Assembly: GCA_903936705.1 (NCBI GenBank)
Contig: CAIZWN010000004.1
Location: forward strand, 1-53,928
Direction of reading: 5' to 3'
Origin: an uncultured Myxococcales bacterium
Lineage (GTDB): Bacteria > Myxococcota_A > UBA9042 > DTJE01
DNA length: 53,928 nt
The notes beneath the pieces were generated by a model. That model saw only the letters and a list, made by a program, of their open reading frames with translations, was not told where the DNA came from and ran no database searches. Position 1 is the first letter of the stretch. Every line of letters starts with the position of its first letter. Shown here piece after piece: positions 12,990 through 39,054 of this stretch. Both the position numbers and the translations under genes were made by a program.

Positions 12990-13082
12990 CGCCTTCTCCT
13001 TGGGTTGCCCGCTACTTTGTGTCGGGCCCCGGCGTCGGGCGAGGCCCTCACTCCTTCGACCCCGTGTCCGGGGCAGGGTCAG
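12990..13082 (-). repeat. Intra-operon spacer with two stem-loops between small and large hydrogenase subunits
   Basis: The 93-bp spacer contains GGGCC (13024-13028) pairing with GGCCC (13043-13047), and CCCCG (13060-13064) pairing with CGGGG (13069-13073) across a 4-nt loop. Neither is followed by a T-run in the direction of transcription. They could affect mRNA processing or subunit ratio; that is a guess. Confidence 0.4.
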
Positions 13083-14066: not shown

Positions 14067-14070
14067 GGCA

Positions 14071-14520: not shown

Positions 14521-14523
14521 TGT

Positions 14524-16488: not shown

Positions 16489-16510
16489 GATCCCTCCTAC
16501 GGAGAGAGCT

Positions 16511-22399: not shown

Positions 22400-22591
22400 G
22401 CGTATGGTGTTCGATACCAGGACCGAAGCAAACTGCAGTGTTGTCATCAGATCGTTGATTTGAGTTTTGGCAAGGGCCGTGGTCCGGTTGGAGCGACCCG
22501 GCCGGAAGTTCAGGTTTCGCGACAAAATCGGGCGTATCAGCCTCGTTGACAGTTGCGGACGCGATCCAATAAGCTGCCCGCGGAGATACCG

Positions 22592-24568
22592 ATGCCAGGA
22601 CGCCACCGACAGTCGTTGTGCGTGGCCGTGATGGCGTCCATTCTTATTGCTACGCTTTTTCCTTCATTAGTCCTTGGCGCTGGTCCAATCCTGCGTCCGT
22701 CGGCCGCAGTCACAGTGCAACGCGCCTTGGACCGCATGGGACCTCGTTGGATCATTAGGGGCCTGACGATCAGGCCCGATCGCGTTAGGACCAGGTTGTG
22801 CGTTGGCTCGACCGACTGCCGGGATCTCGTCCTGTCGAATCCTGGTGCGGGATGCACCGGAGAAACGATTGGGCCTTGGTGCGTCGTTCTGGGTGGAAAT
22901 GGGCCGGATCTCCCGACGATGGAGGCCCTGCGTGAGGTCCTTCGCCTGGACGCCCCCGAGGACGTCTGGTTCGTGCCAATCGAACCCCCGCGGGCCATCG
23001 AGCCGGACTCGCACGACGGTGAAGTCTCATTGGGCGAGCCACTCGCAAGGTTTCCGTGGGCCTGGGTTGGCACGGGAGTTGGAGTCCTGGTGTTTGTCCT
23101 GGTCCTGGCGTTTTTCCTGGTGATGGTGTGGAGGGCTGCGCGACGTGTGCGTTCGTGGCACCTGGGGTTGCGTGCCGCCCTTGAAGATTGGACTGGTTGG
23201 CTGGCTAATCGGTTCAGCGAGGCATGGCATGGCTTGGTTGGTCTGCTGGCGGAACCGGGTCGGCAATATGATATGGACCCTTCGCGGCCCCTGTTTCGGC
23301 CGGCGTGGCGGGATCTTGGCTTTGCCTGGGTCCTTTGTTTTGCGGCCCGAGCCCTCTTTGTCTGGGGGGGGGGCGACGTCAATCCATGGACGCCAGAGAC
23401 ATGGTGGGAAAACGGCGTTCTGGTGGGAACGTCGCTGGAGTTCGATCAAATCCGGCCCCCATTGTTCAGCCTGTTGGCAAAACTCTTCTGGTGGCTCGGC
23501 GGCCGGACCTTGGAGGGTTGGCTGGCCGCTAACATGGTCGTGCTGGGTTTGACGGGGCCGGTTGTACTGAGCCTGTCGTGCCTTCTGGGTTTCCAGCGCG
23601 CCGCGGCCTGGGCCGTGACTTTCATCGCCGCAGTGGCCCCGTTTGCAATCGAGACCGTGTTCGGACAGGGCTACCTCGCCAGCCTCTGGCAACTCCCGAT
23701 GAATTCCCTGGTGTTCACGGCTATGCTGCTGGCATTCGTCAACGCGCTGAGGCACGGGTTCCGCCTGCGGTCCGGCCTGCTGTTTTCGCTGGCGGCGCAA
23801 GTGGCTTTCCTGGACCGGCCGAACGTCGTATCGACGCTCGTGACCTTGTATATGCTGGCGGCGGTGCGCGGTGTGGTCCTGGCGCGGCGCGACTGCGCGC
23901 GCGTCTTGCCGGGCATTGCGCGACTGGGCGTTTCGCTGGCGGTGCTGGGTCTTCTGCTGCTGGGCGTGGCGACGACGTACCGGATGAACGGTCTGTGGTT
24001 CTCGCCGTTCCCCCCACAGGGCGGTCCGAACGTCTTCTTCGGCAACAATCCGTATGTGGCTGGAGCGGTCTGCGATCCCGACTGTTTCACACTCGAGATG
24101 ACCTGGCTCGAGAGGGGACCGCCCGAGACCTCGTTCGAGGAGGCCGACCTGATCGAGGGTACTGATCGCTCGTTGATGCGAACGGGTCTGGCGTACGCAT
24201 TCAGTCACCCGGCCGAGACTTTGAAGGCCTGGCCGTGCAAGGCGGCGCGGTACTGGGGTGGCCCCCCATTGCTCGACTTCCTGGTGCGAGGCCACATTGA
24301 TCCGTCCCCGACGGCAGTTGCCCTGGTATACCACGTGCTGGTGCTGCTGGGGTTGATCCTGCTTATGGTGCAGCGTCGGTGGTGGGTTGTGATGTTCCTG
24401 GTCCTGGTGCCGCTGTCATACTTCATGCCATACCTGCTGCTGGGGCCCGTGCTGCGGTATCGGCTGACTACCGAACTGCTTCTTGTGGTTCTGGCCGGGT
24501 ATGGAGTGCAGCAATCGGCATTAATCGCGTGGCGGTTCGTGCGTCGTAGGCTCGCGAAACAGCCGTAA
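22592..24568 (+). CDS. Membrane glycosyltransferase-like protein with secreted N-terminal domain
   Basis: This 658-residue protein starts with a signal-like segment (to about residue 35). About 120 extracytoplasmic residues with four Cys follow (CVGSTDC, GAGCTGETIGPWC), then a TM helix and a basic cytosolic stretch. The C-terminal two thirds have eight or more hydrophobic segments in the style of GT-C (PMT/ArnT-like) transferases. FDQIRPPLFSLL resembles their first-loop Asp plus HPPL-type motif. ATG 22592 is preferred for the GGAGATACCG ahead of it over the TTG at 22553. A run of ten G lies inside the gene at 23364-23373. Its 3' end overlaps the convergent GT2 gene by 48 bp. The donor and acceptor are unknown. 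Confidence 0.6.
   Translation: MPGRHRQSLCVAVMASILIATLFPSLVLGAGPILRPSAAVTVQRALDRMGPRWIIRGLTIRPDRVRTRLCVGSTDCRDLVLSNPGAGCTGETIGPWCVVLGGNGPDLPTMEALREVLRLDAPEDVWFVPIEPPRAIEPDSHDGEVSLGEPLARFPWAWVGTGVGVLVFVLVLAFFLVMVWRAARRVRSWHLGLRAALEDWTGWLANRFSEAWHGLVGLLAEPGRQYDMDPSRPLFRPAWRDLGFAWVLCFAARALFVWGGGDVNPWTPETWWENGVLVGTSLEFDQIRPPLFSLLAKLFWWLGGRTLEGWLAANMVVLGLTGPVVLSLSCLLGFQRAAAWAVTFIAAVAPFAIETVFGQGYLASLWQLPMNSLVFTAMLLAFVNALRHGFRLRSGLLFSLAAQVAFLDRPNVVSTLVTLYMLAAVRGVVLARRDCARVLPGIARLGVSLAVLGLLLLGVATTYRMNGLWFSPFPPQGGPNVFFGNNPYVAGAVCDPDCFTLEMTWLERGPPETSFEEADLIEGTDRSLMRTGLAYAFSHPAETLKAWPCKAARYWGGPPLLDFLVRGHIDPSPTAVALVYHVLVLLGLILLMVQRRWWVVMFLVLVPLSYFMPYLLLGPVLRYRLTTELLLVVLAGYGVQQSALIAWRFVRRRLAKQP
23364..23373 (+). 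repeat. Ten-G homopolymer inside a coding region
   Basis: G10 covers codons near residue 258 of the membrane glycosyltransferase-like gene (encoding the W-GGG-D stretch). Slipping by one base would truncate the protein. Poly-G of this length is a classic phase-variation tract, and also a common place for sequencing error. Confidence 0.8.
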
Positions 24569-25288
24569 TCGGAACGCCAGGATGTAGGGTATCAGCCGGA
24601 GTTGACTGGCCAACCGGTAGCTGCTGCGCGGCGACTCGATCCAGGTGATGGGTACTTCGACCACCCGGTACCCCATTCGGATCGCGCGAATCAAGATCTC
24701 GGCATCCCAGAACCATCCGCGCAGCAGCGGACCTTCATAGCGGCTTACCTCGGCAAGGTGCTTGAAAACCTGGGTGCGGAAGACTTTCAGCCCGCACTGG
24801 TAGTCGGCCACCGAGCGGCCGAAGAGCAGTGAAAGGAAGGTTGTGTACGCATAGCTAGCCGCGATGCGGTGCCCTGATCGCTCGAGGCGCGAATCTGGAA
24901 GATAGCGGCTTCCGACGGCGCCATCTGCGCCGTCCACCAGGGCATCGATCAGGACAGGCAGGGTTTCGATGTCCGGCGACAGGTCGGCATCGACGAATCC
25001 GACCACGTCGGTGTCAGCCTCGGCCATTGCTCGGCCCATGTTCTCTCGCCACGAGTTCCCCTTCGATGACCTGCTCAACCGGATCGTGTCGGAAAGGAGC
25101 GGCAGCAGCACCTCGACTGTGCGGTCCGTCGAACCGTCGTCCACAACGACAATTCGCCACGATCCCTTCCGGTTCGCCAGCCGGCTTGCGACCTTGCGCA
25201 CCGACTGGCAGATGATGGCCTCCTCGTTCAGCACCGGTATGAAGATCGTGACGGAAGGCTGGGTCGGGATGGGAGCGTTTCGCTTCAT
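24521..25288 (-). CDS. Polyprenyl-phosphate-type glycosyltransferase, family 2
   Basis: This 255-residue soluble GT2 resembles dolichyl/undecaprenyl-phosphate glucosyl- or mannosyltransferases. VTIFIPVLNEEAIICQSV is the N-terminal nucleotide-binding motif. VVVDDGSTDRTVEVL and GFVDADLSPDIETL carry the Asp motifs (DDGSTD, DxD as DAD). GRSVADYQCGLKVFR is the conserved DxQCGxK segment. Such enzymes charge a lipid carrier that a GT-C enzyme then uses, which fits the convergent membrane transferase next door. ATG 25288 overlaps the stop of the upstream lipoprotein gene by 4 bp (ATGA), so the pair is translationally coupled. Confidence 0.87.
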   Translation of the reverse strand: MKRNAPIPTQPSVTIFIPVLNEEAIICQSVRKVASRLANRKGSWRIVVVDDGSTDRTVEVLLPLLSDTIRLSRSSKGNSWRENMGRAMAEADTDVVGFVDADLSPDIETLPVLIDALVDGADGAVGSRYLPDSRLERSGHRIAASYAYTTFLSLLFGRSVADYQCGLKVFRTQVFKHLAEVSRYEGPLLRGWFWDAEILIRAIRMGYRVVEVPITWIESPRSSYRLASQLRLIPYILAFRLRLFREPTTHEPPRD

Positions 25289-26190
25289 TGGGCCTCCCCC
25301 GGGGAAGCAGTGGGCGCGACCAGGATGACCTTCGATGGTGCGTCGATGACGCAACGAAATCCCAGGTCGGCTACTCGAGTGGCTGCGTCGAACCGAAGGT
25401 TCACGTCGGGACGGATGCTTCCGTATCGCGGGTCGGTCTCCCAGGCTCCCCCGCGGACGCTCTTCCACCGGCTTTCCGTGATCGAGTTCCAACGGGAGGA
25501 AGTCCACTCGCGAACGTTGCCCGCCATTCCGCCGATGCCCTCCGGAGTTTTGTCCAGCAACGGTTCTGTCACCGGGCAGGTTCCGAGCCCTTCTCGTCGA
25601 TCAAAGTCGTAGCGCCTCCAGCACAGCGCTTCATTGTCCGGAAGGCGGTAGCCCCACGGGTAGATCCGCGGCTTCTGCCCGCGGCCCGCTTGGACCCATT
25701 CCGCAGCCGTCGGAAGGCGTTTCCCGGCGTAAACGCAATAGGCCGTGGCCTGGCACCAGTCTACGCAATTGATAGGGTGGTCCAAACGATCGGGCCGTCC
25801 CCAGTTGCAGAAGTCAGCCTGGCCTGCGGCGGTGCAGACATTGGCCGTAACGCATGCCGTGTATGCGGCCAGAGTCACCTCGGACTCGTCGACGCATGTC
25901 GATCCGACCGGCTGATGCATGCCATCGATATCTTCGGATCCTTTCTCGTCGCCACTGCTTCCCGGCACGAAGGCCATTCCGGATGGACATTGGAATGTGC
26001 CCATGGCCTCCGGTCGGGCAAAGGCCATCGGTGCCGCAAGTTCCGTTTCCCCCGAGCACTTTCCGGCCTGATCCTCGTACGAGTGCCCGCAGGCCAAGCC
26101 CAAGGCCAGTGACGTGACTAAGACGGCGAGTCTTGGGACACGCAGAAAGCGGCGTGGGGATGACGAAGGCGAGATCGGAACCAGGCGCAT
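25285..26190 (-). CDS. Lipoprotein with sulfatase-modifying-factor (FGE-like) domain
   Basis: This 301-residue protein has a lipoprotein signal with lipobox LGLAC (Cys near residue 34) and should be anchored outside the cytoplasmic membrane. The rest is an FGE/SUMF1-like domain: PSGMAFVPGSSGD, ESEVTLAAYTACV, CNWGRPDRLDHPINCVDW, GKRLPTAAEWVQAGRG, IYPWGYRL, GMAGNVREWTSS, VRGGAWETDPRYGS, DLGFRCV. The two Cys used by true formylglycine-generating enzymes after the RGGS/A motif are absent, so a binding or structural role is more likely than formylglycine synthesis. Its GT2 neighbour overlaps it. A similar domain ends the pseudokinase at 35536-37917. Confidence 0.85.
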   Translation of the reverse strand: MRLVPISPSSSPRRFLRVPRLAVLVTSLALGLACGHSYEDQAGKCSGETELAAPMAFARPEAMGTFQCPSGMAFVPGSSGDEKGSEDIDGMHQPVGSTCVDESEVTLAAYTACVTANVCTAAGQADFCNWGRPDRLDHPINCVDWCQATAYCVYAGKRLPTAAEWVQAGRGQKPRIYPWGYRLPDNEALCWRRYDFDRREGLGTCPVTEPLLDKTPEGIGGMAGNVREWTSSRWNSITESRWKSVRGGAWETDPRYGSIRPDVNLRFDAATRVADLGFRCVIDAPSKVILVAPTASPGEAQ

Positions 26191-26299: not shown

Positions 26300-26309
26300 C
26301 CCCCCCCCC
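26300..26309 (+). repeat. Ten-C homopolymer upstream of the vWA operon
   Basis: The tract lies about 120 bp upstream of the predicted vWA promoter and 110 bp upstream of the divergent lipoprotein gene. Length changes here could alter promoter spacing or strength for either side. Confidence 0.75.
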
Positions 26310-26495: not shown

Positions 26496-28427
26496 ATGAA
26501 GAAGCGGTCGGGATATCTTTTCGCGGTGATGGTCTGCCTGCTGATCCCGTCGTTCTCCCGGGCCGAGGACGGTTCGGTTGAATCCGAGGACATGCGTTTT
26601 GCCATTGCGCTCGTGCAGGATCTTCAGACATTTCAGGAGCCGCGGAATTTCGAACGGACGGAAACCTTCACCATGCCGATCCTCAGGCCTTTTCGGATTC
26701 GTGAAACGGCTTGCGTTGGGCCTGATGGCCTGACTGCGCCGCCTCGTGTCACGATGCAGAACGGCAGGAGGATAGATTCGTGTGCGGTTTCGAACCAGGG
26801 AGTCTGGTACAAACTGGAGCGTTCCCCAAACCGCTTCGGTTGGGTTCTGGGTGACCACGTTGCGATATGGAATTCTCGCCACGCTCAGCGGCCCTCGATC
26901 GATGCATCCTCGGACCTGATTTCCGGGTACTGCGAGACCAAGGATGCCGACGCGGCGGCCCATGGCAAGAGCAGCCCATGCATGTCGATTTCGCGCAGTA
27001 TGGTGGCAGACCAGGGCGAACGGGCGCCCTTTCCGGTGATCGATACCGAGCTGTTCGGGGACGGGGTCGAATTTCCGCGAAAAAGGTACTTCAAGGTGCT
27101 GGTTCCGACCTTGTACAGCAACATGGTAGTGACTCAACCGAAGATCGGATCGAAGCGAGCGGGCGTGCCTATTGGCGAGCTGGAGATCATCCTCCTGATC
27201 GACGCCACGGCGTCAATGAAGGCCGAGATCGAGGGTACCAAGGAGGCCATTCGCGAGGTCATTCGGGACTTGAACGCGCTGTCCCAGGTCAATGCGCGCT
27301 TCATGGTCATCGGGTACAGGGACACGGACAAGCAGGAGTCCCTGTTGCCCGTGGAATCGACCGTGGATTCATCGGGCAAGCCTGGGTTCGTGTCGGCTGC
27401 CGAAGCCGTCAAGTTCCTGGATGTCCTGGAGTCTGGTGAGGGTGGGGACCCGCAAGAGGCGATTTGGGATGCTCTGTACCTGCTGAAGAACGTCGAGGTT
27501 ACGGCGGGTGCCAACCGGGTTCTGGTCCTGGTGGGTGATACCCCATCGGTCAACGTGACCCGCGGATTGACCTACCTGGGCACCGAGGTGCCGTCCGGAA
27601 TGAACAGTCGGACCGTTTTTTCGGCCATCGCGGACACAATTGGCGATTCGACCAGATTCCTGGCCCTTCTGATCAAGACCAGGGCAATGAAGAAGACGGC
27701 CGAGGAGATGCTGCAGGGAAACAAGTTCTACGACCACCAGTTCGACCTGCTGATCCAGAACGACAAGAAGCTCGTGAAGGCCACGATGTACAGCTTCCTG
27801 GTCAAGCAAACCCAGCGGGCGGCGGTCAGCATCCAGAACAACGATGCTTGCCGTAAGCGTATCGTTGATGTCGGCGAAGGGACTTCCAGCCAGATCTTCT
27901 GCGGAACGGATACGGCGCCTATGCGTGAGCGTATCCATGACCTTGTCAGGCAGTCGGGACGGAAGGGCGATCTGATAGTCATTCGCGAGTTGTGGCTGCC
28001 CGAGACCCAGAGCATGGACAACGTAGCGCTGGTGGCCGTGGAAGAAGCCAAGAACATGAGCAAGACCATGAATTCACTTGCGCAGAAGCTGGGGGACGAC
28101 GGCTCTGGTTGCGAGCGATACGGTGCCGAGATATGGGTCGAGGCGATTCGGGCGTTGATTCCCGTGGAGGAGACCGCCTCCAGCGACGGCGGCGCCATGC
28201 TGCAGATGCCCATGGTTGGCAAGAGTCTCCACGAGTTCTGGCGACTGAACGTCAACCGTGGGGATTCGTTGATTAACTTCAATCCACAGGACATCGCCAA
28301 ATTGGCGCCTGACCGGTGTCTGGTCCTGCGCGAGCGACTGTTCAGGTCGTCCCAGTCTGTTGACAGACTGCTGGACCGCAAGCGGGGCGCGCAGTTTCTA
28401 TGGCTTCCGTTCTCGGTCATTCCCTGA
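26496..28427 (+). CDS. Secreted von Willebrand factor A (vWA) domain protein
   Basis: This 643-residue protein has a signal peptide (basic start, hydrophobic core VMVCLLIPSFSRA) and no other clear membrane helix. An SH3-like N-terminal part (about 60-130) includes CVGPDGLTAPP and NQGVWYKLERSPNR. From about residue 228 there is a vWA domain with the MIDAS motif DATAS in IILLIDATASM, then GYRDTD and VLVGDTPSVN. The vWA style recalls the PpkA-type vWA of kinase-linked proteins. The C-terminal third is unassigned. ATG 26496 is chosen from several in-frame starts (TTG 26481, GTG 26490) because it gives the best signal peptide. It heads an operon with the ABC transporter and two exported proteins, suggesting a metal-dependent binding role outside the membrane. 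Confidence 0.8.
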   Translation: MKKRSGYLFAVMVCLLIPSFSRAEDGSVESEDMRFAIALVQDLQTFQEPRNFERTETFTMPILRPFRIRETACVGPDGLTAPPRVTMQNGRRIDSCAVSNQGVWYKLERSPNRFGWVLGDHVAIWNSRHAQRPSIDASSDLISGYCETKDADAAAHGKSSPCMSISRSMVADQGERAPFPVIDTELFGDGVEFPRKRYFKVLVPTLYSNMVVTQPKIGSKRAGVPIGELEIILLIDATASMKAEIEGTKEAIREVIRDLNALSQVNARFMVIGYRDTDKQESLLPVESTVDSSGKPGFVSAAEAVKFLDVLESGEGGDPQEAIWDALYLLKNVEVTAGANRVLVLVGDTPSVNVTRGLTYLGTEVPSGMNSRTVFSAIADTIGDSTRFLALLIKTRAMKKTAEEMLQGNKFYDHQFDLLIQNDKKLVKATMYSFLVKQTQRAAVSIQNNDACRKRIVDVGEGTSSQIFCGTDTAPMRERIHDLVRQSGRKGDLIVIRELWLPETQSMDNVALVAVEEAKNMSKTMNSLAQKLGDDGSGCERYGAEIWVEAIRALIPVEETASSDGGAMLQMPMVGKSLHEFWRLNVNRGDSLINFNPQDIAKLAPDRCLVLRERLFRSSQSVDRLLDRKRGAQFLWLPFSVIP

Positions 28428-28444
28428 CGTCGCTGGGGGTAGTT

Positions 28445-30949
28445 GTGGCTGGAAACGACGATCGTGCGGAAGACGCCGTTTGCGGGAAGGATACCAGGGA
28501 GGGATGTCTTGCCAGATGGACCTACCTGAGGAAGGACGTTGCCGTGGGCAACGGGAACGTGCGCCGTGTCCTGGATCTTGGTCCGGGATGGATCCCTCGC
28601 GGCCGGCTTACATGCGTGCTGGGGCCGTCGGGATGCGGCAAGACGACATTGCTGTCGGTGCTTGGTCTGGTTGATCACGATTTCGAAAGCGATATCGACA
28701 TTTGTCTTGATGGCCATCGGCACCAGGTCGGTTCCTGGACCGTACGCAAGCGCATGCGTGAATCAGGCGCCTTGCGGCGGCGGTTGGGATACGTGTTCCA
28801 GGAAATCCGCGTGCGTACCGGTGCGACTGCCTTGGAAAACGTCGTTGATCCAATGACATACCTGGGTCTTGGTCGCCGCAGCCAAAGGACGGTGTACGCC
28901 CGGAAGATGCTGGGCCTTTTCGGCCTTGCCGATCCCGACCTGGATCGCCCGATTTCTGCTTTCTCGGGTGGGATGCAGCAACGCACCGGGCTGGCCAGGG
29001 CGCTTTCGGTCGGCCCTGACGTGGTCGTGGCCGACGAGCCTACTGCCCAGGTGGATGACAAGCTGGCCGACTCGATCTACCGGGACCTCAAGCGTCGTTC
29101 GGCGGAAATGGGAATCACGGTAATCGTGGCCACCCACGACGAACAGATGGCCGAGCGGCATGCCGACCACATTTTGCGTTTCCAGCCGACAACCGACGAC
29201 GAGTCCGCGATGAACGTCGCGAAGGAGTCGGGTCGCTGGTTGTACACCATGAACGTCGAGCGCGAAAACACGAACGATGTCCCGCCTTCCGGCGCGGGAA
29301 TCGGTTTGCAGCCGGCGTCGTTTGCGACCTCGATCGGCGACATGGTCCTTGCCGCACTGGGGGAATTCCTGCCGCTGACCCGGGTGCTTGGGAGGGCCCT
29401 GAAATTCCTGCTGTTCGGTTGGATGGTGGCTCTTATGGGGCTTGTGACCCACCGTCCCCGCAAGCTGGTGGACGGGATTCCGCCTCATCGCTACGTGCCA
29501 ATCCTGGTTTCGATTGTCACCTTCGGGATGCTGGCGGCGATGGGGTTCGCGCTGTTCGGGGTCAAATCAGCCATCGTTGCGTTCCAGCGCGAGAAGCTGG
29601 ATTCCCTGCAGGTACTGCGTCGCGTTCGAGTCGAGAGCCCCGGGGATTTTTCGGGGAACGCGATGCAGTTGGATGGCGAGTCGGTCCGCAAGGCGGTTGC
29701 AGCCAAGGGCATCAACGTCGTGCACTTTGAGCCGGTATTCGAACTGGGCGGCGAGGCGCTGACCGCGGGTGACCGGCAGTACATGAGGGATTCGGAACGC
29801 TGGGCCGAGCCGCAGTTGCGGTCACTGCTGCATCCGGAACAGGTTGATGGCATCGAGCGAGGGCAGCGTCGGGTCTACCTGAACGTCATGGGCGCCGATC
29901 CGGGACAGCCACTGGCCTTGGATGTCGGGTTGCCGAAGGATGGCAGGAATTTCGGGACCGGCAAGGACGGGTTGCCGGATATGTGGATTGCGCGGAACGA
30001 GTGGGCGTGGCTGTTCGGTAATTTCGACGCGCTTCCGAATCCGGACGACAAAGTGGGTATGTTGATCGTCGCTGCCGAACCGGTGCGGCCCGCGGCCGAG
30101 GGCTCGGCGCCGAATTACCCTCCCTCGATCTGCGTCAATTTCAATATCGGCGGGCATCTGGCACCCAAGGCTGCTCCCAAGGGGTTCGAGTCCAAGGTGC
30201 AGAAACGGTTCTACCTGGGGGCCATTCGGAACGAGGTGCGTAATCGAATACTGGCATGGCAGGCCGATCCCTTGAATCCGGCCAGCGCCGTCCCGGCGTC
30301 ATGGTTGTGCGAGGGGACACCCGTCAATTCCGGATACGAGTACGTGAACAAGGATTCCCCGAAGACCCCTCGTGCCCAGGACTACGATTTTTTCGCGGAA
30401 TCCCCCGAACAGGCCCTGGCGCTTGAGGATGCGCTAGACAAGTACGCCATCGACAACCACATGGTGTTCGGCGGGGTCGTTGCCGAACGAGGGTTCATCA
30501 AGGAAGTCGTACGTCTGATCCGGCTTGCCGAGATCGTGGGATTTGCCTTGCATGTCCTGCCAATCGCGGTTGGCGGCGTGATCTTGTGGCTGGTCGTGCA
30601 CGAGATCCTTTATCGCCGGCGCGATGACCTGCTGCTGTTCCTGGTGATGGGTGCGCCGGCTCACAACCTGCATATCCAGTCGTTTATCCTGGCGGTTCTG
30701 GTGGTGCTGCCGGGAATTGCGTTCGGGTATCTTCTTGGCGGGATGGGGCCGGCGCTGCTGGCAAAGCTGGTCGGTGAAGGTGTCGTTCCTGCCGAGATGC
30801 TGAAGCAGATGAAAGAGGTGGGTATCGGGCCTATCGGGGTCGCGCAGACGACATTGGCTGCCATCGGCTTTGCCATGCTGGCATCGGTGACCGTGGTCAA
30901 GTCGGTGCTGTCAACGAATCCGGCGGCTGCGTTCAGGGGGATGCAATGA
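28445..30949 (+). CDS. Fused ABC transporter ATPase-permease, MacB-like topology
   Basis: About 834 residues. The N-terminal ATPase has Walker A GPSGCGKTT, signature FSGGMQQRTG, Walker B VVVADEP and the H-loop VATHDEQ. A first TM near VSIVTFGMLAAMGFALFGV is followed by a large extracytoplasmic domain of about 320 residues. Three C-terminal TM helices end in NPAAAFRG, the FtsX/MacB permease pattern. MacB-type proteins are mechanotransmitters that drive lipoprotein or substrate movement in the periplasm rather than transport through the membrane. The start is uncertain. GTG 28445 has a G-rich site before it; the ATG at 28400 overlaps the vWA gene by 28 bp and has none. The ATPase is longer at its N-terminus than usual (849 residues from 28400, MacB about 650). 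Confidence 0.85.
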   Translation: MAGNDDRAEDAVCGKDTREGCLARWTYLRKDVAVGNGNVRRVLDLGPGWIPRGRLTCVLGPSGCGKTTLLSVLGLVDHDFESDIDICLDGHRHQVGSWTVRKRMRESGALRRRLGYVFQEIRVRTGATALENVVDPMTYLGLGRRSQRTVYARKMLGLFGLADPDLDRPISAFSGGMQQRTGLARALSVGPDVVVADEPTAQVDDKLADSIYRDLKRRSAEMGITVIVATHDEQMAERHADHILRFQPTTDDESAMNVAKESGRWLYTMNVERENTNDVPPSGAGIGLQPASFATSIGDMVLAALGEFLPLTRVLGRALKFLLFGWMVALMGLVTHRPRKLVDGIPPHRYVPILVSIVTFGMLAAMGFALFGVKSAIVAFQREKLDSLQVLRRVRVESPGDFSGNAMQLDGESVRKAVAAKGINVVHFEPVFELGGEALTAGDRQYMRDSERWAEPQLRSLLHPEQVDGIERGQRRVYLNVMGADPGQPLALDVGLPKDGRNFGTGKDGLPDMWIARNEWAWLFGNFDALPNPDDKVGMLIVAAEPVRPAAEGSAPNYPPSICVNFNIGGHLAPKAAPKGFESKVQKRFYLGAIRNEVRNRILAWQADPLNPASAVPASWLCEGTPVNSGYEYVNKDSPKTPRAQDYDFFAESPEQALALEDALDKYAIDNHMVFGGVVAERGFIKEVVRLIRLAEIVGFALHVLPIAVGGVILWLVVHEILYRRRDDLLLFLVMGAPAHNLHIQSFILAVLVVLPGIAFGYLLGGMGPALLAKLVGEGVVPAEMLKQMKEVGIGPIGVAQTTLAAIGFAMLASVTVVKSVLSTNPAAAFRGMQ

Positions 30950-30966
30950 TGAATGAAGGTGTTTCG

Positions 30967-32982
30967 ATGGGTGGACTGAAGGTGAACAGGACCGCGAGAC
31001 TGCGAATGATGTTCGTAGTGGCGCTGGCGTTGCTGGCGGTGCCGTCATCGGCTGTCGCCGGCGATGGCTTGCCTTCCGACGGCGCGTTCCGGCTGCCGGC
31101 CGGCTTCAAGCCGCCGACCCGCAAGTGCGATCCTCGCGGGACTTGCGATGTCGGCCTGCGCTGGGAGGATGGTCGTCCCGAGTGGGTAATGAGGTGCCAG
31201 AATCCCCTGGAACCGCAGGTTGCGGATCGCCTGCATGCCCTGGAGGCATTGGAAAAGGACCAGTTGGTAATCGTCATTCCTCCCAAGCGCCTGGAGTTTG
31301 CCGGCAAGATCCAGGACTGGCTGGAAGCCAACAAGTTCAGCGAACTGCTGGACGGCGGGCAGGTGCGCATCCTGCAGCGGGTCGAGGCAGGGCGGCAGGC
31401 AGCCACCGCCGCGGTGCAGGGGGTTTGTCCCCAGCCCTACACGGCAGAGGACGGGACCTCGGTCCAGCCCAATACCGTAGTGGTGTATCTGGGCACGGCG
31501 GCCGAGGCGCCAGCGGCCAGTCCCTGCCCGAATGCCAGGTGGCCTCAGGCCGTTGTTACGATGCAGACTCAGAAGGACCTTGATCCCGTCATCGGCGAAA
31601 TGGTCAGATCCCTGGCATTGACCAAGCGGCAGGTGGCCGATATCGTCCAGCGCTACAAGCGGGGCTGCATCGACTTTGGTGATGCCAAGGATTCGATCGA
31701 ATTGCGGCTTGGTACCAATCCCAGCCGCCTGCCTGCTTCCCAGCGGCTGACCCGCGAGAACCTTGGCATCACCTCCTCGGCTGCAATGGAACAGGCGACG
31801 TCGCTGGGGATTTCGGTGTCCAGGCGGATCATTGCCAGGATTCCCCCGGACCAGTTGCAGGGCATTGCCCAGCAGGACGCCCGGGGCGGTTGGTTCGTGC
31901 GCGTTGTCGAACTGAACACGTTGTTCAAGACGGCGACCAAGGCCGGAGGTGTCGATCAGGACCGCAAGATGCTGAAGGAGCGGGTTGTCGGCTTGCGCAA
32001 GCAGGTCGTCGAACTCGACTGGATCGGCTCGGATTCGACGGCGAACAATTTGGGCCGCCGCGAACTGGATTCCTCCGGCGAGTCCCTGGCGGACCTGGAG
32101 AGCCGTTATGACCGGGTCTGTATCGAACTGCGTGGCACACCTTCCTGCGAGAAGGTTCGTGCGGGGCTGAATGAGTTCCGGGACAAGTTGACCCAGGCCC
32201 GTCTGGTTGCGCCCGAAGGCCCCACCGCGGTTGCGGACGATCGTCGTTCCGCCGGAGCCTCCAGGGCCAAGTATCAAGGAATTCTGAAGGGCGCCGCTGC
32301 CGACCTGGGCAGGCTTGAGGCCGATCTTGACAAGTGCAGCGAGGACCGGTGTCTTGACGACGCCATGGACCGCGTGGACCAGTTGGCCAGCAAGCTGAAC
32401 CAGACCAGGGACGAGGCGAAGGGCCTGGCGGTGTCCAGCCTGCCCAAGGACGCTTCGAGGATGCTGGTTGCACTCCAGAGCAGTCGGGCGAACGCTGAGG
32501 CACTGGTTCAGCAGTATCTGCCATCGACGGCGCCCAAGTCCAAGGGCATGTCCACGATGAAGATCGCTGGTATTGCGGTGCTGGCGGTGGGCGCAGCGGC
32601 GATTGTCGGCGGCGGTGTTCTGGTCGGGGTGGGGGAATCCACTCGTGGCAAATATGACAAAACAACAGGCTCGAAGGTTGTGAGAGCAGACGTCTGGGCC
32701 AAGGCCTCCTGCGGTGGCAGCGTAACCGGCTGCTACAAGGACGGAAATACTCTTCGATATGCCTACGCGGGCCTTCGTGACCTGAAGACCTGGCAGCGCC
32801 TTCAGTCAAACATTGGCTATGGCTTGCTTGGGGCAGGAGCCGCCGTGGCAATTACCGGTGGCGTCTTGTGGGTAGTGGACTATTTCCAATCCAAGGAGAC
32901 GCCCAAGAAGGTATCGATCATTCCATCCGTGGGAGTTGGGCGAAATGGCGCGGTTGTAAGTGGCCTTCAGGGCAGCTTCTAA
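30967..32982 (+). CDS. Secreted helical protein with two C-terminal TM segments
   Basis: This 671-residue protein has a signal peptide (VALALLAVPSSAVAG) and a long, largely helical middle rich in Lys, Glu and Asp, with about ten cysteines and coiled-coil-like stretches. Two Gly/Ala-rich hydrophobic segments lie near residues 530-557 and 616-640, followed by VSIIPSVGVGRNGAVVSG at the end. That tail (two glycine-rich helices plus a short beta-rich close) is frequent in myxobacterial exported proteins. I do not recognise the central domain. ATG 30967 is preferred for the GAAGGTG before it; ATG 30946 overlaps the ABC gene stop. It probably is the periplasmic partner of the MacB-like protein. Confidence 0.7.
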   Translation: MGGLKVNRTARLRMMFVVALALLAVPSSAVAGDGLPSDGAFRLPAGFKPPTRKCDPRGTCDVGLRWEDGRPEWVMRCQNPLEPQVADRLHALEALEKDQLVIVIPPKRLEFAGKIQDWLEANKFSELLDGGQVRILQRVEAGRQAATAAVQGVCPQPYTAEDGTSVQPNTVVVYLGTAAEAPAASPCPNARWPQAVVTMQTQKDLDPVIGEMVRSLALTKRQVADIVQRYKRGCIDFGDAKDSIELRLGTNPSRLPASQRLTRENLGITSSAAMEQATSLGISVSRRIIARIPPDQLQGIAQQDARGGWFVRVVELNTLFKTATKAGGVDQDRKMLKERVVGLRKQVVELDWIGSDSTANNLGRRELDSSGESLADLESRYDRVCIELRGTPSCEKVRAGLNEFRDKLTQARLVAPEGPTAVADDRRSAGASRAKYQGILKGAAADLGRLEADLDKCSEDRCLDDAMDRVDQLASKLNQTRDEAKGLAVSSLPKDASRMLVALQSSRANAEALVQQYLPSTAPKSKGMSTMKIAGIAVLAVGAAAIVGGGVLVGVGESTRGKYDKTTGSKVVRADVWAKASCGGSVTGCYKDGNTLRYAYAGLRDLKTWQRLQSNIGYGLLGAGAAVAITGGVLWVVDYFQSKETPKKVSIIPSVGVGRNGAVVSGLQGSF

Positions 32983-33010
32983 GGCCTTGAATTCCTGGAG
33001 GGATCGTTCG

Positions 33011-33379
33011 ATGAATAAATTCGTATTGATTTCATGTGGGTGGCTTGCGGCATTCGTGATTGTTGGTGCGGCTGGATGTGCGCTTGATAAGAAGGAGTGT
33101 TCGACCTACAAGGATTGTGAATCCGGTTTTGTGTGCATCAATGATCCGGCTTCCGACTATTCCTACTGTCTGTGGGGCAGCGGGTTTGGGGGGGATGATG
33201 GTTTCTGTTTCCCCACCGCCGCTGAAATTGTTGATGGCGATAGAACGTGCAATGATAATCGGGTGTTCCAGTGTTTCACTGATGCCAGATGCGGCGGCAA
33301 GACCTGGGTGTTGATCGATGACTGTTATGCCGGCAATCGGACGTGTGGCGGCACCCCTTCGCAGTGTCTGCCAAAATAG
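33011..33379 (+). CDS. Small Cys-rich lipoprotein
   Basis: This 122-residue protein has a lipoprotein signal with lipobox VGAAGC at about residues 22-27. The mature part has about a dozen Cys, including CSTYKDCESGFVC, the Cx5Cx5C-like pattern common in myxobacterial lipoproteins, and CFTDARCGGKT and CYAGNRTCGG later. The Cys probably form disulfides outside the cell membrane. GGAGGGATC precedes ATG 33011, 28 bp after the previous gene, so it closes the vWA/ABC operon. The gene is noticeably less GC-rich than its neighbours. Its function is unknown. Confidence 0.75.
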   Translation: MNKFVLISCGWLAAFVIVGAAGCALDKKECSTYKDCESGFVCINDPASDYSYCLWGSGFGGDDGFCFPTAAEIVDGDRTCNDNRVFQCFTDARCGGKTWVLIDDCYAGNRTCGGTPSQCLPK

Positions 33380-33428: not shown

Positions 33429-35324
33429 CTAATTCGACCGCAAACACATCGGTTCCATGAAGACCTTTCCGGCCTTGATCAGGCGTTCGGCGGTCAGGCT
33501 TTTGGCCACCGGGTCGCAGTCGGTCATGTTGCCGCGGAAGTGGAATACCATCTCGGGGTCCACGGACGGGGGCATTTGCCAATCGAACGGCGTGCGGCCC
33601 TTGGATTCCCCGTTGATCGTCACCTTCATGCCAGATGGCAGGGATGCGATACGAATGACGGTAGGAGGCGTCGTGACCGGCGCGGGGGCTGCAACCTCGT
33701 TGCCAGACGCAGCACCGGCGGGACTTTCCTGGCCGGTTGCGGTTGCCGCCGGCACTGGCTCGCCCGCCGCAACAGCCTCGGCAGCCAGGGGCTGTCCAGA
33801 TGGTGCGGGCGCAGGGATGTTTGCTGGCGGAGTGTTTGCCTGGGCCGCAGGTGCCTCGTTTGCAGCAGCAGGAGCAGTCGCAGGAACAGTTGGCTGCTTG
33901 ACCGCGGCAACAGTCGCAGCGTCGGAACTAGCCGTCTGGTTCTGATTCATGTTCGGCAGTTGCATGATCACCCAGGCGACACCGATACCCATTGAAAGAC
34001 CCATGATGATGGCCAGGACCCAGCGCAGCCAGGTCATGCGCTTTCCATCGGACGGAGGAATCCGTTCGACCGTCCGGGTCGGGTCGGGTGTGCGCTGGGG
34101 CCCGCGTGTCGATGGCCCGCCCCGTTCGACGCGCTGACCAGCCTCCTTCTGTGGCGGCAGAGGTCCGGTTGTCTCCTCCTGGCGGGGGGGATTCTTGCCG
34201 TCTGACCATCCGGGCATCGCGGAAGGCGTCTCTGGTTTGGAGGCCTCGGTAGAAAGCACCGATGGAGGCGACGTCGGCAGGCCGCCTCCGGATGACGACA
34301 GGTACAGAAACTCGTCCAGCATCTGGCGGGCCGAGGCCGGTCGGGCACTCTGGGAAGGCGACAGACAGCGACGGAAGAACGACTTGACGTTCGGCGAAAG
34401 CCCGATGGCCTCGGGCAGGTCGGTTGGGTCAAAGGAAGGATCCGCCTTTTTCGTCAGGACGGTGATTACGGAATTCCCCGGGAACGGCAGCACGCCTGTC
34501 ATCGCCTGGAACAGCATGATCCCGGTGGCGTACAGGTCCGTGCGTCCGTCGATCTCGACGCTTCCGCCATGCTGTGCCTGTTCGGGCGCCATATAGCTGG
34601 GTGTGCCAAGGATGTCGACGGCCCCCGACAAGGTATTGTCGATTGAATTGGCATCGCTGCCTGTGACCTTGGCGATTCCGAAGTCCAGGATCTTCGCTTT
34701 GGGCGACGTTTCGTCCCCGGCAACCATGACGTTGCTGGGCTTGATATCCCGATGGACGATCCCGGCGCGATGGGCCGTATCAAGCGCGTCCAGAATCTGG
34801 CTGAACAGCACCTTCAGGAACAGTGGATGCAGCGCCCTGCCTTGTTTCCGATGCTCGGACAGGATGCGGTCGAATCCCCTGCCTCCGCGAACGTATTCCA
34901 TGACCATGAACGGCAGTTCAAAGCCAAGGTCCTCGACGCCGAAATCATAAAGGCGAACGATGTTGGGATGTTCTAGCTTGCACAGGGCTACCGCCTCGCG
35001 GCGGAATCTCTGGCGGGTAACGTCCTGCAGTGCCGTGTTTGCAATGACCTTGACCGCGACCTCGCGCTCGAGGTCCATGTGGATTGCCAGGAACACGGCG
35101 CCCATGCCGCCTTCGCCCAGCAGGCCGGCCAGCAGATATTTTCCCGAAAACACCCTGCCCAGCAGCGGATCAACCGGTCGATTACGTCCGGTATAATATT
35201 CTTTGGCTTTCCTGAACCACGTGTCCGGAATGAACCGATAACCGCTCTCTGCGCATGAGGGCTTGCTGCAAGCCTCTCCAACCCGGGCGCCTACGGCGGC
35301 GCAATGTGGGCAGATCGACGTCAT
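33429..35324 (-). CDS. Ser/Thr protein kinase with zinc-ribbon N-terminus and PEGA domain
   Basis: This 631-residue transmembrane kinase begins with a Cys-rich zinc-ribbon-like stretch (CPHCAAVGARVGEACSKPSC). The Hanks-type kinase domain is complete: GEGGMGAVFLA, VKVI, HRDIKPSNVM, DFGIAK and MAPEQ. A Pro/Gln-rich linker leads to one TM helix (LRWVLAIIMGLSMGIGVAWV), an Ala/Pro-rich extracytoplasmic stalk and a PEGA domain (VIRIASLPSGMKVTINGES) near the end. PEGA domains bind cell-surface glycans or proteins. ATG 35324 follows GGAGGGG; an open extension to 35600 runs into the divergent gene. It is divergent from the pseudokinase gene and convergent with the small lipoprotein, and is likely the active member of the pair. 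Confidence 0.9.
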   Translation of the reverse strand: MTSICPHCAAVGARVGEACSKPSCAESGYRFIPDTWFRKAKEYYTGRNRPVDPLLGRVFSGKYLLAGLLGEGGMGAVFLAIHMDLEREVAVKVIANTALQDVTRQRFRREAVALCKLEHPNIVRLYDFGVEDLGFELPFMVMEYVRGGRGFDRILSEHRKQGRALHPLFLKVLFSQILDALDTAHRAGIVHRDIKPSNVMVAGDETSPKAKILDFGIAKVTGSDANSIDNTLSGAVDILGTPSYMAPEQAQHGGSVEIDGRTDLYATGIMLFQAMTGVLPFPGNSVITVLTKKADPSFDPTDLPEAIGLSPNVKSFFRRCLSPSQSARPASARQMLDEFLYLSSSGGGLPTSPPSVLSTEASKPETPSAMPGWSDGKNPPRQEETTGPLPPQKEAGQRVERGGPSTRGPQRTPDPTRTVERIPPSDGKRMTWLRWVLAIIMGLSMGIGVAWVIMQLPNMNQNQTASSDAATVAAVKQPTVPATAPAAANEAPAAQANTPPANIPAPAPSGQPLAAEAVAAGEPVPAATATGQESPAGAASGNEVAAPAPVTTPPTVIRIASLPSGMKVTINGESKGRTPFDWQMPPSVDPEMVFHFRGNMTDCDPVAKSLTAERLIKAGKVFMEPMCLRSN

Positions 35325-35535: not shown

Positions 35536-37917
35536 ATGCCGAAAACGGTCAGGGATTGGCTGCTGGAACAGGAGATCGGCAGGGACGCCGTCAGCGTCAC
35601 CTTCCGTGCCCGTCATCGCAACCTGTCCGGCGAATGGACTGTCAAGGTCTACCAGGAAGGCGTCCTGGATCGCGAAGCCGTTCGCGAGGCCTTCATCCGT
35701 GAGGGCGTTGCCCTGGCCTCGGTGCAGCATCCGAACCTTCTGCGAATCCAGGTGCCGTTCGTCGAGGACAAGCTGACCTACTGCCCCATGGAATGGGTTT
35801 CGGGCCGTTGTCTGGACGTACTGATTCACGAGGGCCCACCGCGCTGGACGGTGGATTCAGCCGCCAGGATACTGGTTGCGGCGGCCGAGGGAGTCGGCGA
35901 GGCTCACAGGCAGAATCCCCCCATAGTTCACCGTGATCTTAGACCCGAGATGATTCGTGTCATGGAAGACGGCCTGGTCAAGGTCGGCGACTTCTGCCTG
36001 GGCCAGACGATTGACGAGCGGTCGGTAAACGGCACCGTTCATGAGGTCTGGGACCCCAGATACACGTCACCCGAGGTCCTGGGAGGAAAGGCCTCGACGG
36101 TGCGTTCGGACGTGTATTCACTGGGTTTGATCCTTTACAGGATGCTTGCCGGCCGTCTGCCGTTCGATCTTCCAAAGGCGAAGAACGTCATCGGATTGAT
36201 ATTTGCCCTGCACAAGGCCCACGGCAGCGGGCTGGTTCAGTTGCGGGACCTGGTGCCCGAGGTGCCAGTATCGCTTGCCGGCCTCGTCATGGACTCGATT
36301 GGACCTGCTGCCGGGCGGCCCGAGAATGCCTCTGTTTTTGCCGAAAAACTTGCCGCGTCCGCCGGGGTCGTCAGAACCCGAATGCCGGTTGCGCATACCG
36401 AGGATGACGAGACTCGTATTGGGCTGTCGGTCGATGCCGTGCGCAAGGCTCTGGGGATGGACCCGCTTGCGACGTCTGCGGCAGGTGCCGATCCCGTTGC
36501 GACCACGGCCGGCAGTCACCAACGACCCATTGAATCGGGCGGGGGTATGGCAAGACCGGCGCCTGTCCCGGCTGTTCCCTCTGTCCCGTTTTCGCGCCGA
36601 ATCAGGCAGCCTTGGGTGATAGTTACATTGGTGACGATGCTGGTTGTGGCCGGTGGCATCGCCTTCTGGCGGTTCTTCGAGGTCCCAAGGCGCCAGAAGG
36701 CGGCCATTGACAGCGCGGATTGTGACAAGGCCCGAGGTATGCGTGATCGTGGTGCTTGGGCCAGCTATCTTGGGGCGCACGCAAAGGGCATTTGTGCGGT
36801 CGAGGCCGCGACGGCCATCAAGGACATCGATGCCTGCGCCCTGGCTCGCAAGAACGCGGATGCTGGGTCGTGGAAGGAATATTCCAAGTCGTTTCCCTCG
36901 GGAATATGCAAGACCGAGGCAACCAGTGCGATCCAGGCCGGGGAACAGTTGGCGTGCAAGACTGCCAGGGCGGCGAATACGTCGAAGTCGTGGCGGTCGT
37001 ACCTGGATGCAAATCCGGCCGGCGTCTGCATCGACGAAGCGAAACGGGCCATCCAGGACCTGGCGGCGTGCGACAAGGCCCGCAGCACGGCAGATATCGC
37101 GTTATGGAAGGCGTACCTGGACGTGTACCCCGAGGGGACCTGTCATGGCGAGGCCGAGACGGTCCTGCATGTCTCAACCCGCCTGATCAAGTGGATCGAG
37201 ATCCCGGGCGGCCGATTCGAGATGGGTTCCAGGCGCGGCGGTGACGATGACGGAATGCCTCGTCACGAAGTGACTGTTCCGACCTTCCTCATGGCGAAGA
37301 CCGAGGTGACGGTGGAACAGTACCGGGCCTGCGTAGGCGCGGGCGTCTGTTCGCAGCCAGGCGCCGGTGACAAGTGCAACTGGGGCGTATCGGGTCGGGA
37401 CTCCAGTCCGGTGAATTGCGTGACCTGGCATCAGGCGCGGGTGTTCGCGAAGTGGGTGGGCGGCCGCCTTCCGTCCGAAGCAGAATGGGAGTACGCGGCC
37501 CGCAGTGCAGGAAAGGACCAGGAGTACCCGTGGGGTGATACCGTGGCGTCATGTGCTTTTGCAATCATGGACGATGCGAACGCTGCGCGCGGACAGAACC
37601 GAGAAACTGCAGGCTGCGGAGCGGGGACAACGTCGCCCGTGTGCTCCAGGCCCGACGGGAATTCCTTGCAGGGGGTTTGTGACCTGGCCGGCAACGTCTG
37701 GGAATGGACCGAGGACTGCTGGCACGAATCCTACACGGGCGCTCCGGCCGATCATGTGCCGTGGACTGCGGGATGCCAGTCGGGGGCCAGGGTCTGGCGT
37801 GGCGGTTCGTGCCTTGGCAGCGAACGTCTGCTGCGATCGACCTTCAGGTTCCGCGGGGATCCCGGAAACCATAGTACCGGCCTGGGATTCAGAACCGTCA
37901 GGTCCGGGCCTCCTTGA
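35536..37917 (+). CDS. Probable pseudokinase with four Cys/Trp repeats and FGE-like domain
   Basis: This 793-residue protein starts with a Ser/Thr kinase fold in which several motifs are altered. The P-loop is EIGRDAVSVTF with one Gly, the catalytic loop reads HRDLRPEM (Lys to Arg, Asn to Met), and DFG is DFC. The AVK-type Lys (TVKVY) and HRD Asp remain. One TM helix lies at about 358-380. Residues about 394-545 hold four repeats of roughly 38 residues with the pattern C..A, W..Y, G.C..EA. From about 553 there is an FGE/SUMF1-like domain (GGRFEMGSRRGGDDDG, CNWGVSG, GGRLPSEAEWEYAAR, YPWGD, GNVWEWTEDCW, WRGGSCLGSE) lacking the catalytic second Cys. It heads a five-gene operon. Loss of the Mg-binding Asn makes catalysis doubtful. 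Confidence 0.85.
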   Translation: MPKTVRDWLLEQEIGRDAVSVTFRARHRNLSGEWTVKVYQEGVLDREAVREAFIREGVALASVQHPNLLRIQVPFVEDKLTYCPMEWVSGRCLDVLIHEGPPRWTVDSAARILVAAAEGVGEAHRQNPPIVHRDLRPEMIRVMEDGLVKVGDFCLGQTIDERSVNGTVHEVWDPRYTSPEVLGGKASTVRSDVYSLGLILYRMLAGRLPFDLPKAKNVIGLIFALHKAHGSGLVQLRDLVPEVPVSLAGLVMDSIGPAAGRPENASVFAEKLAASAGVVRTRMPVAHTEDDETRIGLSVDAVRKALGMDPLATSAAGADPVATTAGSHQRPIESGGGMARPAPVPAVPSVPFSRRIRQPWVIVTLVTMLVVAGGIAFWRFFEVPRRQKAAIDSADCDKARGMRDRGAWASYLGAHAKGICAVEAATAIKDIDACALARKNADAGSWKEYSKSFPSGICKTEATSAIQAGEQLACKTARAANTSKSWRSYLDANPAGVCIDEAKRAIQDLAACDKARSTADIALWKAYLDVYPEGTCHGEAETVLHVSTRLIKWIEIPGGRFEMGSRRGGDDDGMPRHEVTVPTFLMAKTEVTVEQYRACVGAGVCSQPGAGDKCNWGVSGRDSSPVNCVTWHQARVFAKWVGGRLPSEAEWEYAARSAGKDQEYPWGDTVASCAFAIMDDANAARGQNRETAGCGAGTTSPVCSRPDGNSLQGVCDLAGNVWEWTEDCWHESYTGAPADHVPWTAGCQSGARVWRGGSCLGSERLLRSTFRFRGDPGNHSTGLGFRTVRSGPP

Positions 37918-37980
37918 TCTGTAATGCTCGCGCACGAAACTTCGTGGTACTATCGGCCACCGGAATTCGGGAGGACAGTG

Positions 37981-39054
37981 GTGGGCTCGGGGTGTGTGCG
38001 TCAAGCGCTGGGGAACCAGTCTGCGTATGGCGGGTCCCTGGTTCTGTTGTCCGTTTGCATGGCGGCATTCTCGTTTTCCCAGGCAGCCAGGGCTGACGAA
38101 GGACTTACCGGCCCGCCTGATCGGACGCGCTATCCTCGCGAGGCCTTCCTTCTTGGTGACGGTTCGGGACTGACGTTGGCAGTGGCGCGTGACAGTGCCA
38201 GGGCCGAGATCGCCCGATACTTCGAGGTTCGGATAGACAGTTCCTTCGAATCGCTGACCCGTACCATCAGTCTCGTAAAGAACAATGTCGAGACCAGCCA
38301 CGCTTCGGAGGACGTTCAGACGCGGACACTGTCGGAGACCAAGGTGGTCCTGGAGGGTGTCGAGATCGTTGCCACCTGGAAAAGCGAGGGCCAGATTCAT
38401 GCTCTTGCGGTGCTGGATCGAGGAATGGCTGCGCAGCGACTGGTCGAGGGGATCAAGACCATGGATCGCGACATCCAGGGGTTGCTGGAATCGGCACGCG
38501 CGCTTCCCGGGTCGGTAGAACTGATTCGGAAGGTAAATCGTGCCATTTTCCTGTTTGCCGTGCGGCGCATCCAGCAGCAGAAACTGGCGCTGATCCAGGC
38601 GTCGGCGGTTCCGCCGCTGCCCATTTCGCAGACCGACCTGTTGCTGGAACTGGACCACGCGTTCAAGGCCAGTCCAATCATGGTGAAGATGACCGGGGAC
38701 GAGGGAGGTCGGATCCGTGCGGCTGTCGAAAGCGAGTTCACGCGCAAAGGGTTTCGCGTTACACAAAGTGACTATGACGCAGTGATCAGGATTCGAGGGC
38801 AGTGGGCCACCGAAGTGCTGGTATCTACTGACGAACGATTCCGATATGTGAGCTGGTCGTTGAGGCTGCAAGCCACCGATCTCGAGAAGGCTTCCGTCGA
38901 TCTCGCGGTTCTGGAGGAACGTGGCAGGGAAGGGCACAAGACGGTGCCCGGGGCGATCCAGCGATCCGAGGCTGCTGCCTGCGCGCGAATCTCCGACAAG
39001 ATCGGGCTGGTGCAAAAGATCATGCTGGCAATCGTTGCGATGCCGGGGGAATGA
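37981..39054 (+). CDS. Secreted LPP20-like protein
   Basis: This 357-residue protein has an N-terminal export signal (SLVLLSVCMAAFSFSQAARA). The following 130 residues match the LPP20/FlgP style: ARDSARAEIARYFEVRIDSS, then a stretch rich in Ser and Thr, then LEGVEIVATWKSEGQIHALAVLDR. The C-terminal part (about 200-357) looks like a second alpha/beta domain with SEFTRKGFRVTQSDYDAVI. LPP20 proteins are outer-membrane or surface-associated. GTG 37981 is chosen because GGGAGG lies 6 nt upstream and it gives a compact signal peptide; ATG 37924 has no such site. The CsgG-like gene starts one base after its stop, implying coupled translation. Confidence 0.65.
   Translation: MGSGCVRQALGNQSAYGGSLVLLSVCMAAFSFSQAARADEGLTGPPDRTRYPREAFLLGDGSGLTLAVARDSARAEIARYFEVRIDSSFESLTRTISLVKNNVETSHASEDVQTRTLSETKVVLEGVEIVATWKSEGQIHALAVLDRGMAAQRLVEGIKTMDRDIQGLLESARALPGSVELIRKVNRAIFLFAVRRIQQQKLALIQASAVPPLPISQTDLLLELDHAFKASPIMVKMTGDEGGRIRAAVESEFTRKGFRVTQSDYDAVIRIRGQWATEVLVSTDERFRYVSWSLRLQATDLEKASVDLAVLEERGREGHKTVPGAIQRSEAAACARISDKIGLVQKIMLAIVAMPGE

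Follow-up and report, generated by a model that had tools for sequence, protein, structure and literature searches.

What might a MacB-like ABC protein do when it is encoded in one operon with an exported vWA protein, an exported helical protein and a Cys-rich lipoprotein, rather than with an adaptor of the MacA type? The question is raised by a locus of an uncultured Myxococcales bacterium, for which we analysed a continuous stretch of 53,928 nucleotides (hereafter 'the window').

Organization and occurrence of the gene set

All four ORFs of the locus are found on the + strand of the window, co-directional and tightly packed (intergenic spacing across the operon ranges from overlap to ~30 nt), in agreement with an initial sequence-only reading that had placed them in a single operon. 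The first gene (26496–28427, ATG start) encodes an exported vWA protein of 643 amino acids. It is overlapped by the ORF of an ABC half-transporter with a MacB/LolC fold, which opens at 28400, ends at 30949, and is identified by ABC_tran and FtsX domains above the Pfam cut-off, by alignment and by fold matches; conservation begins at approximately residue 38, and a GTG codon at 28445 provides an alternative start. The third gene, which is supported by homologues and by a structure model, runs from 30946 or from an ATG at 30967 to 32982; the latter start yields the exported helical protein of 671 amino acids described initially, and the former is also possible. Its C-terminal TM-hairpin module (32551–32979) was recognized by profile matches and by matches of a hairpin HMM elsewhere. 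The fourth gene, separated from the third by 28 nt, encodes the Cys-rich lipoprotein (ATG at 33011, ending at 33379). No terminator-like sites were found on the + strand between the operon genes, and the single such site in the operon (position 30710) is inside the ABC gene; terminator-like sites were not commoner than in shuffled sequence.

Two further genomes of the family (JARKOL010000355 and JAKPTZ010000002) share the vWA–ABC–helical gene order. Because this order is kept in two other genera, we regard the three ORFs as real genes; identities to the counterparts in those genera are 54–56% for the ABC protein, 44–50% for the vWA protein and 28–30% for the helical protein. Protein searches across 53 genomes placed the homologues of all three in the same two relatives (designated G009 and G004), and a pattern scan of genome contigs for the ABC protein returned the same two contigs only. 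A profile built on the permease half of the ABC protein matched 3 of 379 genomes of the phylum and a profile of the whole protein 3 of 52 genomes of the class (3 of the 13 family members), with none in the remainder of the phylum sample; three copies are known in all. Full-length homologues of the vWA and helical proteins are confined to exactly the three ABC-bearing genomes among these 379, and the remaining matches elsewhere cover only the vWA domain or, for the helical protein, only its C-terminal part.

The neighbourhood search in Myxococcota thus placed both partner genes beside the ABC gene in 3 of 3 cases. Relatives carrying the ABC gene without the other two, which would have spoken against the set, were sought in all 379 genomes across the phylum and none was found. 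Since the ABC gene never occurs without its two companions, we conclude that the three belong together, as had been suggested. The shared order in three genera, combined with perfect co-occurrence, indicates long-term linkage.

In two genomes of the same genus as the window (G001 and G002), HflX is retained at 79–81% identity and the genes adjoining it are unrelated. The operon block is therefore an accessory unit and no fixed part of the chromosome. A fixed chromosomal site was rejected on these grounds, as were a plasmid-borne element (no plasmid match) and a defence system (PADLOC matches were merely generic, to a kinase, an NBD and a caspase). Neither a curated family nor any paper retrieved in literature searches names or describes the vWA–ABC–helical set, consistent with the earlier impression that it corresponds to no named system.

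A run of ten C residues (26300–26309), located between a divergent FGE gene and the vWA operon, is possibly a phase-variable tract; no homopolymer runs of nine or more were found in the relatives' loci examined. A G10 run is also present at 23364, within the ORF spanning 22553–24568.

The ABC protein and its encoded partners

The ABC protein contains Walker A, Q-loop, signature, Walker B and H-loop motifs, and comprises a fused NBD, four TM helices and a periplasmic domain; NBD and permease form one polypeptide in all three copies. Hydropathy analysis places TM1 at residues 368–386 and TM2 at residues 715–733, with ~320 periplasmic residues (including an invariant Cys pair, C578 and C637) between them. 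The same topology, with four TM helices and the periplasmic domain between TM1 and TM2, is indicated for all three members by hydropathy and alignment, and by the structure model. A further segment (residues 333–351) is probably an amphipathic helix preceding TM1, since it is not hydrophobic by score in the relatives. The FtsX domain was detected in all three members, the MacB_PCD domain (PF12704) was absent from all three at E ≤ 10, and no solved relatives of the periplasmic part were found by sequence. Among NCBIfam models, the NBD is nearest to FtsE, with LolD not far off (both within the best three NBD models).

An AlphaFold model of the ABC protein, weak overall (pLDDT 54, pTM 0.42), was used in a fold search of the PDB. 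Ranks 1–7 were all occupied by full-length MacB (E values 1e-16 to 4e-13, across ~800 columns), and LolC/LolE, matching the permease half, followed among NBD-only matches. Two helices of this low-confidence model (residues 366–402 and 697–739) exceed the membrane span, like those of the MacB stalk; the domain arrangement and the stalk are weak evidence because the model as a whole is poor. Hydropathy, alignment and fold matches nonetheless agree on the MacB topology with an enlarged periplasmic domain that had been read from the sequence. Assignment of the protein to the type VII superfamily (MacB/LolCDE/FtsEX) is well supported; membership in the MacAB–TolC pump family is not supported, because the adaptor is not encoded with it.

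The vWA protein begins with a clear Sec-type signal peptide, followed by an SH3-like N-terminal region, a MIDAS vWA domain (residues ~231–350) and a C-terminal region. The Pfam model VWA_4 matches three of five vWA members, falling below the cut-off in the window protein (E = 1e-4) and reaching 6e-6 in a relative. A weak match to bacterial SH3 was obtained with one homologue, and no solved relatives were found by sequence. The DxT/SxS motif (D236xT238xS240, in the 643-residue numbering), a Thr near position 289 and D318 are all present and are retained in the alignment with both orthologues. The intact MIDAS described initially is therefore plausible, as judged from these residues.

Both operon copies of the relatives keep the MIDAS residues, but two paralogues do not: in a lone paralogue of G004 (L018:3287–5281) the MIDAS has degenerated, and a tandem paralogue of G009 (L016:8021–9274) has lost the entire vWA domain and kept both flanks. 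That the flanks persist in paralogues with a degenerate MIDAS or a missing domain suggests that these regions have a role of their own. The G004 operon copy (L017:6411–8510, on contig C107) contains one in-frame TAG near its C-terminal region, which may represent an assembly error, decay or a recent mutation (these being indistinguishable).

The helical protein carries a signal peptide and has no Pfam domain. Its homologues are found in the same two genomes, together with one lone paralogue, and ten Cys residues are invariant across the four homologues. In the structure model, an alpha/beta domain and a helical region are accompanied by a TM hairpin at the C-terminus (residues 542–560 and 623–645), on account of which the protein is probably membrane-anchored and not merely exported. 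No solved protein clearly resembling it was found by sequence or by PDB fold search; NheB, EnvC and other weak matches were set aside as likely coiled-coil noise. The Cys-rich lipoprotein has a hydrophobic N-terminus that extends to a lipobox-like AAGC (in which A at −3 is unusual yet allowed), 11 further Cys residues and, downstream of the lipobox, the motif C-x5-C-x2-3-G-x2-3-C.

In the window and both relatives, a protein with the C-terminal hairpin is followed by a lipoprotein with this motif, and the pair is present in further genomes too. The hairpin module also occurs in TPR-type proteins throughout Myxococcota (at least one of them with a TPR N-terminus), and at the loci examined a hairpin gene is usually succeeded by one for a Cys-rich lipoprotein with the motif soon after its lipobox. 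Among these pair loci are the three ABC loci, five orthologous loci belonging to one family, three pairs in tandem on contig C264 of G009 and a locus in genome G366, whose lipoprotein has a degenerate motif near its N-terminus and the motif again further along; the lone paralogue on contig C26 of G009 and a locus in G015 are exceptions. The motif is present in 9 of 619 control reading frames, a control set that includes some of the same lipoproteins. The recurrence of such loci leads us to see in the helical and Cys-rich genes one version of a widespread Myxococcota hairpin/lipoprotein pair. The earlier description of both products as exported proteins without a known domain holds as far as the signal peptide, the lipobox and the lack of a Pfam domain in the helical protein are concerned; it has to be amended in that they are variants of a recurrent pair and that the helical protein bears a TM hairpin. 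The G009 array itself (L066:5227–16077, on contig C264) consists of a PEGA kinase gene and then a tandem series of hairpin-protein genes, three of which are each trailed by a Cys-rich lipoprotein gene; the lipoproteins scanned in this array have FGE or Lcl_C C-termini.

Neighbouring FGE, kinase and caspase genes

Upstream of the operon, on the − strand, lies the gene for a divergently encoded FGE-domain protein with a signal sequence (25285–26190; FGE-sulfatase, E = 4e-27). Both relatives have the lipoprotein as a fusion with an FGE-like domain, whereas the window FGE gene is separate from the lipoprotein gene. The window protein and the FGE portion of the fusion in G009 are 33% identical, and the window protein is possibly the counterpart of that fused portion. 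Downstream, also on the − strand and thus opposite to the operon, is the gene for a Zn-ribbon Ser/Thr kinase with a TM helix and a PEGA domain (33429–35324 with the likely start, the ORF opening at 35600; Pkinase, E = 4e-47). It is followed on the + strand by genes for a Ser/Thr kinase–TM–FGE protein (35536–37917; Pkinase and FGE-sulfatase matches), an exported LPP20-family protein (37924–39054; E = 1.6e-7), which is possibly an outer part of the neighbourhood, and a putative lipoprotein of uncertain membership (39056–39847; signal and lipobox recognized by eye, no family found in Pfam).

The region downstream of the operon in G004 contains genes for a PEGA-type kinase, an FHA protein, a caspase–FGE protein (at the position of the window kinase–FGE gene) and a DUF4384 lipoprotein (at the place of the LPP20 gene). 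Across seven genomes, the window PEGA kinase finds its best match in the G004 kinase; the G009 contig stops after the lipoprotein–FGE gene, and the kinase comparison rests on the window and G004. Metacaspase–FGE fusions are already known from 33 sequences (PMC3501461) and have the same architecture as the G004 caspase–FGE gene, which is a neighbour outside the ABC core; in the window a kinase stands in for the caspase. The window genome has 32 FGE-sulfatase domain matches, several of them in large multi-domain frames, representing an expansion of the fold. Because FGE domains and kinases of this kind are abundant in these genomes, the neighbours could be there by chance, and the evidence that the FGE and kinase/caspase genes belong to conserved surroundings is suggestive.

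At four loci in relatives (L065, L067, L069 and L072), genes for other Zn-ribbon Ser/Thr kinases of this group lie no more than a few kb away from a gene for an ABC NBD, the NBDs there being 30–40% identical to that of the window. Elsewhere in the window (11526–17653), genes resembling those for non-F420-reducing hydrogenase subunits and HdrA/HdrB-like proteins, named by eye, suggest an anaerobic lifestyle.

Candidate functions of the set

No MacA adaptor encoded with the ABC protein was recognized in the three loci, and the listed ORFs around the window operon include no MacA- or TolC-like gene, as had been observed at the outset. The accompanying premise, that MacB-type machines normally come with a MacA-like adaptor and TolC, is too strict: the same architecture occurs in the adaptor-independent systems LolCDE, FtsEX and YbbAP (PMC5985334). 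The set seems to be an undescribed and rare variant within a known class of machines, and less likely a drug pump. Our preferred reading, to which we assign a probability of roughly 0.4, is that the ABC protein would form a dedicated mechanotransmission machine of type VII (with the MacB/LolCDE fold) and would act on partners in the envelope. This proposal draws on MacB, in which ATP binding is coupled to movement of the periplasmic head and the substrate is not moved through the membrane (PMC5985334), and on FtsEX–EnvC and YbbAP–TesA, type VII systems that, instead of exporting drugs, work on a periplasmic partner of their own (PMC7668044, PMC12646458).

The window protein has in common with MacB an N-terminal fused NBD, four TM helices, a large periplasmic domain between TM1 and TM2 and a C-terminal FtsX domain, and MacB is its best structural match over the whole length of the low-confidence model. 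It differs in the lack of MacA and TolC at the locus, in a periplasmic domain of ~320 residues in which Pfam detects no MacB_PCD and which contains the invariant Cys pair, and in being always encoded with the vWA and helical partners. The likeness to FtsEX–EnvC and YbbAP–TesA is proposed by analogy; neither EnvC nor TesA is related to the window partners, which are a MIDAS vWA protein and a helical protein with a TM hairpin, and YbbP is a fused double half-transporter, unlike the half-transporter of the window.

The strongest rival to the mechanotransmission machine is a Lol-like exporter, in which the ABC protein would pull the Cys-rich/FGE lipoprotein out of the inner membrane and pass it on, the vWA and helical proteins serving as periplasmic carriers or chaperones. 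LolCDE shares the type VII fold, works on lipoproteins and is itself a MacB-type machine without an adaptor (PMC5985334); moreover, LolC/LolE come next behind MacB among the fold matches, LolD is among the nearest NBD models, and a lipoprotein gene lies downstream of the operon in all three genomes. We consider this reading unlikely, however, since hairpin/Cys-rich lipoprotein pairs are present in many genomes that lack the ABC gene, so that such lipoproteins need no ABC protein of this kind. In addition, the seven best full-length fold matches are all to MacB, the single fused window protein differs from the separate LolD NBD and LolC/LolE heterodimer, and no LolA-like fold or gene was noticed among the matches obtained.

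An efflux pump of the MacB type, with the helical protein in the place of MacA or with MacA and an outer-membrane channel borrowed from elsewhere, would accord with those seven structural matches, with an exported and partly helical partner, and with the presence of a MacA-like gene in the genome. The sequence-only reading had likewise proposed that the exported proteins replace the adaptor. This could not be upheld: the structure model, Pfam and the PDB fold search show no lipoyl, beta-barrel or alpha-hairpin adaptor domains in the helical protein, and its predicted secondary structure differs from that of a MacA-type adaptor. A separate MacA as the true partner was also looked for; the one in the genome (contig C69) was rejected, as it resides in its own MacA–NBD–permease operon. 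The vWA protein would moreover be left unexplained, and a pump of either kind appears improbable.

We regard as still more doubtful a sensor in which the ABC and vWA proteins would detect an envelope ligand and signal, in a BceAB-like manner, to the PEGA kinase and a kinase–FGE or caspase–FGE effector. Both the window and G004 have the PEGA kinase gene next to the operon, and FHA and caspase–FGE genes are present in G004, but the window kinase is on the opposite strand, the G009 contig ends before any such position, and similar kinases are numerous in these genomes. BceB is, furthermore, a fused ten-TM protein, in contrast to the four-TM MacB topology of the window protein. Hitch-hiking by chance, in which genes of a small accessory island travel together without forming one complex, would fit the patchy occurrence (3 of 13 family members) and the unrelated genes beside HflX in the same-genus genomes, but is very improbable given the same order in three genera at 28–56% identity and the perfect co-occurrence.

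If the set does form a type VII mechanotransmission machine, the ABC protein would act as a homodimer, in which binding and release of ATP would zip and unzip TM1 and TM2, so that the periplasmic heads would move and the substrate would not cross the membrane. By analogy with FtsEX–EnvC and YbbAP–TesA, which drive their own partners, this head movement would probably act on the vWA and helical proteins as dedicated envelope partners, with the vWA protein holding a ligand through its MIDAS metal. The work performed might be the placing, presenting or remodelling of a surface or outer-membrane component, for which the best candidate would be the paired Cys-rich/FGE lipoprotein, and the adjoining PEGA kinase and kinase–FGE or caspase–FGE protein would be a probable signalling arm. 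The full scheme, an undescribed type VII system in which head movement, the vWA protein and the anchored helical protein would place or remodel Cys-rich/FGE lipoproteins under the control of the PEGA kinase and the caspase–FGE or kinase–FGE protein, is put forward tentatively, as a possibility that we hold to be somewhat doubtful.

The pair of a TM-hairpin protein and a Cys-rich lipoprotein, some with FGE or Lcl_C domains, represents a widespread envelope pair of Myxococcota that is unnamed in the family libraries searched. Type VII ABC machines use one motion for very different jobs, with the periplasmic partner setting the job; if the proposed reading is true, a new class of partner for these machines would be added, in the form of a MIDAS vWA protein together with a helical protein anchored by a hairpin.
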